Shown here: piece after piece, positions 7,278 to 18,529 of the stretch
Numbering within the stretch: position 1 is the stretch's first letter
Layout: the number at the start of each line of letters is the position of its first letter
IMG/VR virus record: IMGVR_UViG_3300027736_000289
Coordinates: 1-20,941 of that record
Direction: 5' to 3' (one strand)
Length of the DNA: 20,941 nt
Source: a virus
Notes under the pieces: generated by a model
Database searches by the model: none
Told to the model about the DNA's origin: nothing
Seen by the model: only the letters and a program-made list of their open reading frames with translations
Translations under genes and position numbers: made by a program

Positions 7278-7634
7278 ATGGCATATTTTGCAAAAATATC
7301 TGATGAAGTTGTTGAAGGTATTATTGTTGTTTCTGACGAGGATTGTGGTAGTCAGTTTCCTGCAAGCGAATCTGTAGGTCAGGCGTTTATTGCTTCACTT
7401 AATTTGTCTGGTGAATGGAAACAAACTTCATACAACAACAACTTTCGCAAACAATTAGCAAGAGTTGGATACACATACGATGCAGATGCAGACCAGTTTG
7501 TTGCTCCGAGTCCGTTTCCATCGTGGACGCTGGACAGCAATAATGATTGGCAGGCACCAACACCGATGCCAAATGATGGGAAGATGTATGGATGGAACGA
7601 AGAATCTCTTGCTTGGGTCGAAGTCGTTGGCTGA
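7278..7634 (+). CDS. Small phage structural-region protein, YFAKI/WNEE family
   Basis: The ATG at 7278 gives 118 residues and is preceded by AAGGTG; a GTG at 7272 overlapping the previous stop (GTGA) would add two residues. The sequence opens MAYFAKISDEVVEGIIVVSD and has GEWKQTSYNNNFRKQLARVGYTYD (split across strands). It closes with PFPSWTLDSNNDWQAPTPMP and MYGWNEESLAWVEV. I recall this arrangement from aquatic phages, including cyanophages and pelagiphages, where it is carried near tail genes, but its function is not established. Trp-rich C-terminal repeats suggest a small binding module. Its last 43 nt overlap the next gene in another frame. Confidence 0.55.
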   Translation: MAYFAKISDEVVEGIIVVSDEDCGSQFPASESVGQAFIASLNLSGEWKQTSYNNNFRKQLARVGYTYDADADQFVAPSPFPSWTLDSNNDWQAPTPMPNDGKMYGWNEESLAWVEVVG

Positions 7635-9103
7635 TTGTTGCTCCTGCGCTTCTAGCTTCGATCTTTAGTTTTATTCCGTCAGCGTCAGCTGATCCGGCAC
7701 CAGGGTTGTCCACGTCGTATTACACGATTGATGAGATACCACCAGTCCAGTCAACTACTGAGTATGAGTTGTGTGGTTCGGAGATAGAGAACAACATCAA
7801 TCGAAGTTACGACGGTGAGCCATTCGAGAACTGCACAGGCGACTTGTTTATGGTTCACATGACTGGGTTCATCACGATCCCCGAACATGAGACGATTGGG
7901 TTCTGGTTGGCTTCTGATGATGGTGGCCGTATCAACATTGGTGGGAATGAGTGGGGCAACTGGGGCGATCAGGGTTGTTCAGCCTACGAGTCTGGGCAGA
8001 TAGACATTAGTGCAGGCGATGCCAACCTCAATCTGTTCATGTACGAGAACGGCGGATCGACCTGCCTGATGCTCGCATGGAACATTGACGGTCAAGGATG
8101 GTCAATCGTTCCCGATGAGGCGTTCACGACCAACGGCGAATCAACCACGACTACGACTAGCACTACTACTACCACTACGACCACAACAACGATTCAGGAG
8201 ACGACAACAACATGGACGACCACAACAACTTCTTCGACTGTCGCACCAACAACTGTTCCTGCTACAAACCCATCGACTACTACGACACTTCAAACAACTA
8301 CGACTTCAACGACTACGACTTCTACAACTACAACTCAAGCACCACCTCCTCCAACAGTGGCACCACCACCAGCGACTACAACTTCCACAACTTCCACAAA
8401 CCCACCAGAGACAACACAACCATTGCCACCTGCAACGGTTCCTCAGCCATCCATACCTGAGACAACGCCACCAGATACACAGCCTCCTCCACCAGCCACA
8501 CTGCCGTTCGTACTACAACCATTATTCCCTCCGAACACAATCACGATCCCTGAACGACCAGCAACGATACCGACAATCCCAATGCCACCAACAACCATGC
8601 CCCCACCCCCAGACACCCTGCCAGAAGCATCACAAGCCCCTGAGACGAGCCAACCTGCCAAAGACGCACCATTGCCACCCATCGCAGACAAGGCTGTTGT
8701 TGAAGCCCTAGCCAACATCGAGCAAGCAACCCCCACAGAAGTCAAAGCCATCGTCACCGAACTCCTGACCCATGCCCTCACCACCGACCAAGCCGTCTCC
8801 GTAGCATCCGAACCAGCAGTGCTGGAAGTGTTGACCAACGCTGAAGCGGCTCAAGTGTTTGAGCAGGTCGCGGTTGAAGAACTATCAACTGAGCAGGCTG
8901 TTGAGTTGGTGGCTGCTGTGCAAGATGCACCATCGTCTGTGCGTAAAGCGTTTGAGGCTGTGTTGAATCTGTTCCAAGGTTTCGCTGATGATTATGTGAT
9001 GACGAATCAAACTGTGCCAATCAAAACTCGTCGTGCGCTGATTGCCTTGGGTGCTGTATTCTTGGTGTCAGCCCCTGCACCGACACGAAGGAATAGACGA
9101 TGA
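7592..9103 (+). CDS. Secreted PA14-like protein with Thr/Pro-rich stalk and C-terminal hydrophobic segment
   Basis: This 503-residue protein has a clear export signal: basic start, hydrophobic WLIVAPALLASIFSFIP and a cleavage-like SASA|D at 33/34. A TTG at 7613 could instead start the signal peptide. Residues about 38-180 form a PA14-like module (MTGFITIPEHETIGFWLASDDGG, then NLNLFMYENGGSTCLMLAWN) with four cysteines. Residues about 184-255 are almost all Thr, then a Pro-rich region to about 370, then a helical region (ALANIEQATPTEVKAIVTEL). A hydrophobic stretch near 480-493 precedes RRNRR. The layout suggests a cell-surface lectin on a stalk. It is followed by an ATGA-coupled membrane gene, so it may be part of the lysis or surface-remodelling block. 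Function unknown. Confidence 0.6.
   Translation: MERRISCLGRSRWLIVAPALLASIFSFIPSASADPAPGLSTSYYTIDEIPPVQSTTEYELCGSEIENNINRSYDGEPFENCTGDLFMVHMTGFITIPEHETIGFWLASDDGGRINIGGNEWGNWGDQGCSAYESGQIDISAGDANLNLFMYENGGSTCLMLAWNIDGQGWSIVPDEAFTTNGESTTTTTSTTTTTTTTTTIQETTTTWTTTTTSSTVAPTTVPATNPSTTTTLQTTTTSTTTTSTTTTQAPPPPTVAPPPATTTSTTSTNPPETTQPLPPATVPQPSIPETTPPDTQPPPPATLPFVLQPLFPPNTITIPERPATIPTIPMPPTTMPPPPDTLPEASQAPETSQPAKDAPLPPIADKAVVEALANIEQATPTEVKAIVTELLTHALTTDQAVSVASEPAVLEVLTNAEAAQVFEQVAVEELSTEQAVELVAAVQDAPSSVRKAFEAVLNLFQGFADDYVMTNQTVPIKTRRALIALGAVFLVSAPAPTRRNRR
8143..8340 (+). repeat. ACN trinucleotide-rich low-complexity tract
   Basis: Nearly every codon here is a Thr codon (ACT, ACA, ACG, ACC mixed), encoding the Thr-rich stalk of the PA14-like protein. 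The codons are mixed rather than identical, so the amino acid repeat seems to be under selection rather than being a fresh slippage expansion. Such tracts can still change length by recombination. Confidence 0.7.
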
Positions 9104-14527: not shown

Positions 14528-14955
14528 ACGACCCAATCGAAGGTCGTGCATACGACGTGAACAGCGAAGACATCTTGGCGTTGAACTACATCAAGACACA
14601 AATCCAATCGCTCGATCACGAACGACGCGACCAGTATTCAACCTTGCTCATTGATGCACAATCCGCTAAACGGAACATCAATCTGAGCGCAAACAAATCT
14701 CACAGACGATACGAAATTGCACGGGGCATTCTGCTTCTCATGCAAGACGGACAGTTTGACCGAGACTTGGTGAAGGGCATCTGCTCCCACATCACCAAGG
14801 AGACATACACAAAGGCAGGCGAAGCACTAGGTCATCTGAATGCTGCACAGGCTGAGCTGTTCGCTCAAATCTGTTACGGCATCACAGTTGATCAAGTGAC
14901 AATCCAATACATCCCAGAACAGAACACATTCCGTGTTCAGGAGGAAAGCAAATGA
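14524..14955 (+). CDS. Unknown protein between exonuclease and SSB-like genes
   Basis: This 143-residue protein overlaps both neighbours as ATGA, so it belongs to the recombination operon. It looks mainly helical: SEDILALNYIKTQIQSLDHE, then basic SHRRYEIARGILLLMQ, and AQAELFAQICYGI near the end with a short beta tail (VTIQYIPEQNTFRVQ). I see no enzymatic motif and do not recognise the family. Its place suggests a partner of the exonuclease or the SSB-like protein, such as a loading or annealing factor. The end of the gene contains the strong Shine-Dalgarno AGGAGG (14939-14944) for the next gene. Confidence 0.5.
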   Translation: MNDPIEGRAYDVNSEDILALNYIKTQIQSLDHERRDQYSTLLIDAQSAKRNINLSANKSHRRYEIARGILLLMQDGQFDRDLVKGICSHITKETYTKAGEALGHLNAAQAELFAQICYGITVDQVTIQYIPEQNTFRVQEESK

Positions 14956-15970: not shown

Positions 15971-16149
15971 GACGGTTCAACATCGGTGACAAAGTAATCA
16001 TTGACGACATCTCAGGTGTCATCGAATCAATCGTCATGGTGGACGGCAAAGAAACAACATACGACGTGCGCTACACCTCTATGGACATGATGATCGCCAC
16101 CGACGTACCAGAAGGAGACATCCAACCTTGGATGGCAGACGAACAATGA
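15967..16149 (+). CDS. Small KOW/SH3-like protein
   Basis: This 60-residue protein starts in an ATGA overlap. Its sequence RRFNIGDKVIIDDISGVIES, then TYDVRYTSMDMM and DVPEGDIQPW has the short beta-strand order and G-D-x-V start of KOW or SH3-type barrels, seen in small nucleic-acid or protein-binding proteins. It could bind RNA, DNA or an enzyme of the host. It is followed by an ATGA overlap with the acetyltransferase. Fold assignment is by pattern only. Confidence 0.55.
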   Translation: MRRFNIGDKVIIDDISGVIESIVMVDGKETTYDVRYTSMDMMIATDVPEGDIQPWMADEQ

Positions 16150-16574
16150 TTATCGCCCTGCGTGACACCAGTAGTGAGGATTGCGAATTGTATTGGGATT
16201 GGGTCAACGACCCTGAAGTGCGCAAACAATCCAATAACACTATGACTATCGAATGGGACGCACATTGGTACTGGTTCAACAAACAACTAGGCCGAGACAA
16301 CGTGCGCATGTTCGTTGCCTACGACTGGAGTTCAATCGGTGCTGCACCAGTCGGACAAATACGATTTGAATACGGCAACAAAGAATGGAACCTGTCGTAC
16401 TCAGTTGACTCAGAATATCGAGGGAAAGGCATCAGTAAACAAATGATTCATCTCGGACTTCAACAACTCACGATCATCAAAGCAGAAGTCAAACCTGACA
16501 ACACCATCTCCAACCATGTCTTTACCAGCCTCGGCTGGGTCAAGACCGGCACAACCTACAGGAGCCAACCATGA
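16146..16574 (+). CDS. GNAT-family N-acetyltransferase
   Basis: The ATGA overlap at 16146 gives 142 residues, preferred over an in-frame ATG at 16128 inside the previous gene. It has the GNAT layout: IIALRDTSSEDCELYWDWVN at the start, PVGQIRFEY before the acetyl-CoA core, then SYSVDSEYRGKGISKQM (motif A, R/Q-x-x-G-x-G type, residues 84-100) and NHVFTSLGWVKTG near the end. The opening with W.ND..VR..S and H.WF resembles acetyltransferases acting on amino sugars (PseH-type) or RimJ/L. Substrate unknown: surface sugar, protein N-terminus or a modified base are all possible. In a phage it may modify a host target. Confidence 0.75.
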   Translation: MIIALRDTSSEDCELYWDWVNDPEVRKQSNNTMTIEWDAHWYWFNKQLGRDNVRMFVAYDWSSIGAAPVGQIRFEYGNKEWNLSYSVDSEYRGKGISKQMIHLGLQQLTIIKAEVKPDNTISNHVFTSLGWVKTGTTYRSQP

Positions 16575-16845: not shown

Positions 16846-17056
16846 AGACCCTGTTGCAGAGTTCATTGAAGCAGCAGCAGACGGACTCTGCACCGCCTAC
16901 GTTGTCGTGGCAACCGTTGAACGCATCGATGGCTCACAATCGTTCTGGATTACAACCCTGAACAGGCAGACCAGTTCGACCACGCTCGGACTGTTAGTGT
17001 CAGCCACCTCAGCCGAACAATACCGAATCGCAAAATCACTCACCGAAGGAACATGA
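16835..17056 (+). CDS. Small protein of unknown function
   Basis: ATG 16835 has GAGG 9 nt upstream and gives 73 residues; GTG 16817 and ATG 16838 are alternatives. The sequence IEDPVAEFIEAAADGLCTAY, VVATVERIDGSQSFWITTLN, then TLGLLVSATSAEQYRIAK looks like a single alpha/beta domain of the kind found in small phage accessory proteins. No motif is recognised. It couples by ATGA (or via the stronger AAGGAGG) to the HTH gene. The cluster context suggests an early host-takeover role, which is inference. Confidence 0.5.
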   Translation: MMIEDPVAEFIEAAADGLCTAYVVVATVERIDGSQSFWITTLNRQTSSTTLGLLVSATSAEQYRIAKSLTEGT

Positions 17057-17076
17057 CAAAGCCCCAAGGAGGCAAC

Positions 17077-17307
17077 ATGGCAACACAACCAAAGCAACAC
17101 AGATACCCAGCAATCAACCTGCTGAACACATTCACACCAGGTATCAACGATCAACAGATAGGTGACATGCTTGGCATCAGCCGATCATGCGTTGTCAGAT
17201 GGCGCACCGTAGGCAAAACACTCTACGAATATCAAGCAGACACGTATGCGGTCAAACTTGGATTCCACCCAGCAGAGATATGGCACAACTGGCTTGATGC
17301 CCAATGA
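17077..17307 (+). CDS. Helix-turn-helix DNA-binding protein
   Basis: ATG 17077 is chosen because AAGGAGG (17066-17072) precedes it; ATG 17053, overlapping the previous stop as ATGA, would add 8 residues. The 76-residue product has a clear HTH: INDQQIGDMLGISRSCVVRW, with the recognition helix ISRSCVVRWRTVG. The segment YQADTYAVKLGFHPAEIWHNW follows, a pairing I recall in small actinophage DNA-binding proteins. It may be a repressor or activator of the small-gene cluster or of the methyltransferase gene immediately downstream. Confidence 0.7.
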   Translation: MATQPKQHRYPAINLLNTFTPGINDQQIGDMLGISRSCVVRWRTVGKTLYEYQADTYAVKLGFHPAEIWHNWLDAQ

Positions 17308-17314
17308 GCATCGC

Positions 17315-18529
17315 ATGAAAGTCCTCAGCCTCTTCAGTGGTGTCGGTGGGTTTGACATGGGCTTGGAGAACGCCGGTATGAAAACAGTGTTCCAATGTGA
17401 ATGGGACAAACATGCGAACAGCATTCTGCACAAGCATTGGCCTGATGTACCAAAATGGGATGATGTTTCTACGCTGACAGGCAAACACATTCTTGCTCAC
17501 GCACCTGTCATTGATGTCGTTGCATGGGGTTCACCATGCCAAGACTTATCTGTTGCAGGCAAACGAGCAGGTTTAGAAGGTGGAAGATCAGGACTCTTCC
17601 ACGAAGGAATCAGAATCATCAAAGAACTACAGGAGGAAAGCAATGGACAATATCCAAGAATCTCTATTTGGGAGAACGTCGTCGGCGCACTCAGTTCCAA
17701 CCGAGGTGCTGACTTCGGGATCATCCTCGATCAGATGGCAGAAGCAGGGGCGTTGGAAATTGAATGGAGCGTCGTGGATGCGCAACATTGGGTTCCCCAA
17801 CGACGTAGACGCGTGTTCGTCATCGCTATCTTCGATCCTGTCCTCGCCAGCAGATGTCCAAACCCGTTACTACCTTTCAGCGAAAGCTTGCGAGGGCATC
17901 TTGCGAAGGGCAACAAAGAAGGACAAAGTTCTTCCACCACGATTGCAGAAAGCGTTGGAGCAGATGATCAGCCAATCTGGATTGATAGAGCAGCTTGGAA
18001 TCAAGGAATCAATGCACAATTCCCTGGAGAGATAAGTGACAAGCCAATAGTTCCACCACTGGTTGTTGGTGTTCCTCATGCGGTGCTTGCAAAGGTAGAG
18101 CCATACGTCAAATCAAGAAGGGCGCAAACATCAGAAGATTCCGAATCCTGGGTCGCTGGTCAAGTCAACCCCACACTCAACTCGTTCGATGTTGGTGACA
18201 CACGTGCGACAACAGCCATTGTTGAAGAACCCATCTTCTTCCAAGCACATATGAGTGGTGAAGCCAGGGTCAAAGAAAAAGTGTTGCATTCATTGTCGTC
18301 AAATATGGGTACAGGCGGCAACAACACTCCTTTGGTTGCTGAGCCAACGATGGCTGTGCGTAGGTTGACCCCATTGGAATGTGAAAGGTTGATGGGTTGG
18401 CCTGATGACCACACTCGATACAAAGCTGATGGCACCGAGCAAGCTGACACCCACCGATATAAACAGTGTGGCAACGGTGTTGCCTCACCGGTAGCCCAAT
18501 GGATAGCCAAACACATTCTCAACATCTAA
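17315..18529 (+). CDS. DNA (cytosine-5-)-methyltransferase
   Basis: ATG 17315 gives 404 residues and places motif I directly at the start (MKVLSLFSGVGGFDMGLENAG), as usual; ATG 17297 would add 6. Motif IV WGSPCQDLS carries the catalytic Cys75, motif VI is WENVVGA (119-125), motif VIII is VPQRRRRVFVIA (160-171), and motifs IX-X lie at the end (LTPLECERLMGWPDD, then QCGNGVASPVAQWIAKHI). The variable part between is the target-recognition region. It transfers a methyl group to C5 of cytosine, probably shielding phage DNA from host restriction. No restriction enzyme is next to it. Motifs VI-VIII and part of the recognition region overlap a separate ORF with a strong Shine-Dalgarno. Confidence 0.9.
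   Translation: MKVLSLFSGVGGFDMGLENAGMKTVFQCEWDKHANSILHKHWPDVPKWDDVSTLTGKHILAHAPVIDVVAWGSPCQDLSVAGKRAGLEGGRSGLFHEGIRIIKELQEESNGQYPRISIWENVVGALSSNRGADFGIILDQMAEAGALEIEWSVVDAQHWVPQRRRRVFVIAIFDPVLASRCPNPLLPFSESLRGHLAKGNKEGQSSSTTIAESVGADDQPIWIDRAAWNQGINAQFPGEISDKPIVPPLVVGVPHAVLAKVEPYVKSRRAQTSEDSESWVAGQVNPTLNSFDVGDTRATTAIVEEPIFFQAHMSGEARVKEKVLHSLSSNMGTGGNNTPLVAEPTMAVRRLTPLECERLMGWPDDHTRYKADGTEQADTHRYKQCGNGVASPVAQWIAKHILNI
17643..18035 (+). CDS. Overlapping ORF inside the methyltransferase gene
   Basis: A 130-codon frame lies wholly inside the methyltransferase in another frame. ATG 17643 has AGGAGG at 17631-17636 with a 6-nt spacer, almost identical to the site of the SSB-like gene (AGGAGGAAAGCAA). 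The product reads MDNIQESLFGRTSSAHSVPT and later SSSLSSILSS, then RYYLSAKACEGILRRATKKD followed by KVLPPRLQKALEQM. I recall phage hypothetical proteins with a LSAKA..GILRRA...G..LPP..L signature near methyltransferase genes, but could not check this. Either a true overprinted gene or a by-product of conserved methyltransferase codons. The Shine-Dalgarno argues for expression. Confidence 0.45.
   Translation: MDNIQESLFGRTSSAHSVPTEVLTSGSSSIRWQKQGRWKLNGASWMRNIGFPNDVDACSSSLSSILSSPADVQTRYYLSAKACEGILRRATKKDKVLPPRLQKALEQMISQSGLIEQLGIKESMHNSLER

Follow-up and report, generated by a model that had tools for sequence, protein, structure and literature searches.

The window, i.e., the whole stretch of DNA analysed here, is a virus record from IMG/VR that runs to 20,941 bases, and its plus strand carries a gene for a C5-cytosine methyltransferase of 410 amino acids at positions 17297 to 18529 (the start may be 17315), which we call alpha. 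Judged by its sequence, alpha is a clear member of the PF00145 C5-cytosine methyltransferases, scoring 178.7 bits over residues 7-408 (cut-off 22); motifs I, IV, VI, VIII, IX, and X all lie in the alpha frame, and PCQ, ENV, QRR, and motifs IX and X are kept in the alpha alignment. The gene is flanked by phage genes, with a Prim-Pol primase/helicase downstream and, just upstream, an HTH_23-like gene (17053 to 17307, plus strand) which overlaps the start of alpha and whose match falls just under the curated cut-off; the same phage window also encodes an exonuclease and a metallophosphoesterase. A GNAT acetyltransferase gene was found at 16128-16574, and the gene at 7592-9103 gave a sub-threshold PA14 match.

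Nested in alpha, in its +1 frame and likewise on the plus strand, is an open reading frame of 130 codons (17643 to 18035, ending in TAA) with a predicted product of 130 amino acids, which we call beta. An initial annotation, made from the letters alone, had proposed a second gene here, overprinted on exactly the codons for motifs VI-VIII; those motifs are covered, but the overlap (alpha codons 116-245) also takes in the linker following them. Motif IX (RRLTPLECERLMGWP) sits in alpha and not in beta. As read from the sequence, the ATG stands six bases 3' of the Shine-Dalgarno sequence AGGAGG (17631 to 17636, plus strand), which falls within the alpha codons for Q-E-E, and a nearly identical start context (AGGAGGAAAGCAA-ATG) opens another gene of the window at 14952. 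The same annotation had pointed to this AGGAGG and to the lack of such a site at the methyltransferase start, which holds for both 17297 and 17315, and the C-terminal pattern that it described is found, residues 78-89 of beta reading LSAKACEGILRR and residues 97-105 reading LPPRLQKAL. Strong Shine-Dalgarno sites (at least 5 matching bases) precede the start in 66% of relatives vs. 23% of shuffles. The position of the start varies by clade, each with its own Shine-Dalgarno site (e.g., GAGGTG ahead of MENIQ in Clostridia and AAGGAG ahead of M.QLTFWSEE in a proteobacterial type). By these signals, beta appears to possess a translation start of its own.

We examined selection on the +1 frame by a shuffle test in which synonymous codons were permuted within each alpha, leaving the protein and the codon usage unchanged. 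Since the beta stretch stays open in 2.5% of the shuffled versions, the length of the ORF alone is weak evidence; it is because of its conservation, and not because of its length, that beta lies far beyond chance. An HMM trained solely on loci from cellular genomes gave 83-205 bits to the +1 frames of 63 viral loci, a non-redundant set, with all 200 shuffles lower in every locus, and not one stop was seen in these frames against 233 expected. As those 63 loci had been selected via the ORF, the test was redone with loci fetched by alpha itself, and the ORF was present and above all shuffles in 77 of 77, i.e., it is kept in relatives picked without regard to it. Close relatives retain the ATG and the open frame, the search pattern having favoured such relatives.

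Third positions of alpha codons are second positions in the beta frame, and for this reason almost any synonymous substitution in alpha changes beta. The ratio of synonymous change to expectation, about 1 over alpha codons 1-105, dropped to 0.13-0.68 over codons 106-225 and from codon 226 stood at about 1 or more. Across 133 disjoint sequence pairs, the fraction of synonymous codons that had changed was 0.337 before the ORF, 0.156 over its first 80 codons, and 0.065 over the next 30, and rose again to 0.40 over motifs IX-X (P-values of 7e-35 and 1e-31 by sign tests); at the Shine-Dalgarno codons it was cut to 0.168 vs. 0.337. The host frame is under excess synonymous constraint, and this constraint is bounded by the ORF. 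Over the last 30 conserved codons the +1 protein is 80% identical and alpha 60%, so the nested frame is the main constraint there. The synonymous-site test suggested by the initial annotation, which had counted a lack of extra constraint against a second gene, found these sites extremely constrained, and the hypothesis of a real gene survives for this reason even though homologues occur only inside C5-methyltransferase genes. On this sequence evidence, the nested gene proposed there, at 17643-18035, is almost certainly a real protein-coding gene, as borne out by the 77 of 77 loci chosen by alpha, the shuffles, and the synonymous constraint. It is very improbable that the +1 frame, instead of being a gene of its own, is reached through ribosomal frameshifting from alpha, yielding a short hybrid protein: the +1 ORF is often open 5' of its start, for 22 codons in the majority of close relatives, as such a reading would have it, but the ATG and Shine-Dalgarno site are conserved, at places that differ between clades, and the constraint starts at the Shine-Dalgarno site and not upstream. 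Chance or passive conservation imposed by the alpha frame, or selection for an RNA structure instead of a second protein, has next to no probability, for although RNA elements can constrain synonymous sites, the synonymous shuffles, which reject passive conservation, never came near the real scores, the +1 protein is the better conserved of the two over those 30 codons, and the protein signature persists in different phyla, the length changes within the ORF being specific to clades.

A tblastn search with the beta product revealed similar frames in unrelated phages, within genes annotated as methyltransferases, and in the first three loci examined in detail the match was in +1 relative to the annotated CDS. 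Throughout the sets of 198, 77, and 239 loci that we collected (some contigs are shared), the ORF is nested in a C5-methyltransferase, in its +1 frame, and 28 of 29 further genome matches are nested in the same way, the exception being L654. These loci come from several bacterial phyla. The initial annotation had likened the C-terminal pattern of the product to phage hypothetical proteins found near methyltransferases, and the homologues inside C5-methyltransferase genes agree with this; the free-standing homologues that it proposed to search for were found nowhere among more than 500 loci from viral contigs, species genomes, phages, and plasmids. Phages P1 and P7 carry the nested ORF inside dmt (L294:2264-2743) and dam (L295:2444-2941), respectively, unannotated in both records; in P1, as in the window, the nested start overlaps an AAT codon. 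The nested ORF is also present in more than 500 plasmid records, mostly from E. coli, where the gene is annotated as the P1-type enzyme. The nested ORF is not general to C5-methyltransferases: in a survey of two phyla it was seen in only one (L337) of the 59 top-scoring C5-methyltransferase loci, and random genome samples of the same two phyla carried it in 5 of 299 and 15 of 299 cases.

The conserved C-terminal element of beta (residues 58-112; 17814 to 17978, plus strand) is helical, with the consensus LSxILExxVPxKYYLSxKACxGILRRA, and matches a segment that follows motif VIII in ordinary C5-methyltransferases and stands in frame there, mostly 28-36 residues past this motif (SLSDILETNVDEKYYV, TLQDLLEHDVDKKYFLSDKI, and LKKVLEKHVPEKYYFSAKAVQGMLK). 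At 4 bits or more, the element was detected in 16.5% of 85 ordinary enzymes, in 0 of 850 shuffled proteins, and in 0 of 198 alpha frames that hold a nested ORF; more than 80% of the ordinary enzymes stay below 4 bits with the element profile, and the matches to these enzymes are short and mostly weak, with only L654 above 20 bits. A profile-profile comparison by hhalign from which L654 was left out placed the element at the same spot with an E-value of 0.0017 and a low HH-suite probability (15%). In L654, the sole non-nested genome match, the profile hits directly past motif VIII in the frame of the methyltransferase itself. This gene (L654:907-1893) is an ordinary one-chain C5-methyltransferase with the beta element in its own frame, and is possibly a link between the nested-ORF and the ordinary forms of the enzyme. 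What is new in this analysis is that, by sequence comparison, the beta element appears to correspond to an in-frame segment of ordinary C5-methyltransferases that is missing from the alpha frames with a nested ORF. In the DNA of the window, the distance from motif VIII to the start of the element is about 8 codons, vs. about 30 in ordinary enzymes, so a frame shift in an ancestral gene does not by itself account for the arrangement, and a deletion or rearrangement must have accompanied any change of frame. Right after the conserved part of beta, alpha codons 226-344 (17972-18328) are highly variable among relatives in both length and sequence, as if target-recognition domains were swapped there.

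Among known systems, the small subunit of M.EcoHK31I is likewise encoded in another frame within the large one. M.AquI and M.EcoHK31I are both two-polypeptide C5-methyltransferases (PMC3404938), and in the naturally split M.EcoHK31I both chains are needed for activity (PMC3404938, PMC3439449); with fragments of M.SssI, complementation was best when the C-terminal piece began in the stretch from motif VIII to the target-recognition domain (PMC3404938). The small chain of M.EcoHK31I, however, has motif IX and that of M.AquI has motifs IX-X (PMC3404938), whereas in the window both motifs are on alpha and beta comprises the segment after motif VIII; we do not file the window system under the M.EcoHK31I type because the small chain there carries motif IX. 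Compared with ordinary one-chain PF00145 enzymes (e.g., L654), alpha is of the same family, and the beta element is in frame there and in the +1 frame here. There is a further likeness to orf13/orf14 of Streptococcus phage MM1 (DQ113772), called C5 methyltransferase alpha and beta subunit by the depositors' annotation only, where a small +1 ORF covers the same part of a C5-methyltransferase gene. Its +1 frame scored 59.6 bits with a family HMM built without MM1, the best of 500 shuffles reaching 32.5, and by this comparison MM1 orf14 is remotely but clearly homologous to the ORF family of the window; it differs as a remote relative whose product ends sooner past the YFLS motif. Since this ORF of a pneumococcal phage was annotated as a beta subunit, the arrangement was already spotted at least once, and in our literature searches of open-licence papers the overlap of beta with the methyltransferase was described nowhere.

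Searches of Pfam and NCBIfam with the beta product gave chance-level matches only, and searches of the PDB by sequence and by fold gave no useful match for beta. PHROG 16143, which is named DNA methyltransferase, was matched by 54 of 61 aligned nested-ORF products at E-values up to 0.1; the window's own beta product, taken by itself, did not reach the threshold. Confidence in the predicted structure of beta sets in only at about residue 76, from where the chain forms two helices, and its N-terminal half is predicted to be disordered; the prediction for alpha leaves residues 195-303 unmodelled, opposite the beta element, which may in part be an effect of the shallow alignment over the variable region. 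As models, the two predictions look complementary.

We consider it probable that alpha and beta form a two-polypeptide methyltransferase in which beta provides the linking element in trans. Ribosomes would start at beta's own Shine-Dalgarno site and ATG inside the methyltransferase mRNA and produce a small second polypeptide, the N-terminal half of which would be read off DNA that encodes the catalytic core. On the simplest reading, alpha's own chain would have lost the element that joins the catalytic and target-recognition domains; beta would bind alpha and supply its C-terminal element in trans, and the working enzyme would be an alpha-beta complex encoded by one DNA stretch read in two frames. 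We infer that beta is produced, that it binds alpha, and that methylation depends on it or is modulated by it; alpha might also be active alone, since it has all the conserved motifs. Selection on beta and on its start site, the constant company of a C5-methyltransferase, the MM1 annotation, the in-frame element of ordinary enzymes, the complementary structure predictions, and the known two-chain enzymes speak for the alpha-beta complex; the full motif set of alpha, the short and mostly weak element matches, and the differing distance from motif VIII speak against it.

It is unlikely, though worth keeping in sight, that beta is real but acts separately (e.g., as an operon regulator or a counter-defence protein) and is merely overprinted in the methyltransferase. 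Its predicted fold, a small helical element with basic residues, would suit such a role, and so would the phage hypothetical proteins mentioned in the initial annotation; however, beta was never away from a C5-methyltransferase in the loci surveyed, its element is common to ordinary methyltransferases, and its MM1 homologue is annotated as a beta subunit. Strict association with the enzyme and the shared element support the earlier suggestion of a partner of the enzyme and speak against the other suggestion made with it, that of an independent anti-host protein. Because the conserved part corresponds to a segment of ordinary enzymes, a look of de novo overprinting is limited to the N-terminal part of beta. 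We regard it as improbable that alpha is a full enzyme which beta only tunes, as an inhibitor, chaperone, or specificity factor that replaces no lost element; motifs I to X in one frame of alpha are in keeping with this, but the element present in ordinary enzymes is missing from the alpha frame.

Overlapping genes that are long, old, and on the same strand have seldom been proven in bacteria and their phages, and beta offers such a case across hundreds of loci and several bacterial phyla, with sharp selection boundaries and with tractable phages in P1 and MM1. Beyond the single locus, it is about an even call whether phages and prophages harbour a largely unannotated class of C5-methyltransferases, P1 included, in which an internal structural segment has moved to a second frame and a working enzyme has to be put together from two proteins encoded by the same DNA. 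If beta is a subunit of the enzyme, recoded or codon-optimised clones of methyltransferases of this kind would unknowingly have lost part of it, and the evolution of an overlapping gene as the partner of its host gene could be tested via one alpha-silent base change.

Some relatives depart from this layout. At L188:3791-5296, L153:1736-3496, and L108:3473-4855, the +1 ORF stays open across the target-recognition region and reaches motif IX in frame, and in L188 and L153 alpha's own frame ends early. In Mycobacterium phage Dove (L296:1206-2324), the methyltransferase is split into an N-terminal gene, gp107, with the nested ORF inside, and gp108, with motifs IX-X. These variants could be natural split enzymes or damaged or frameshifted genes.
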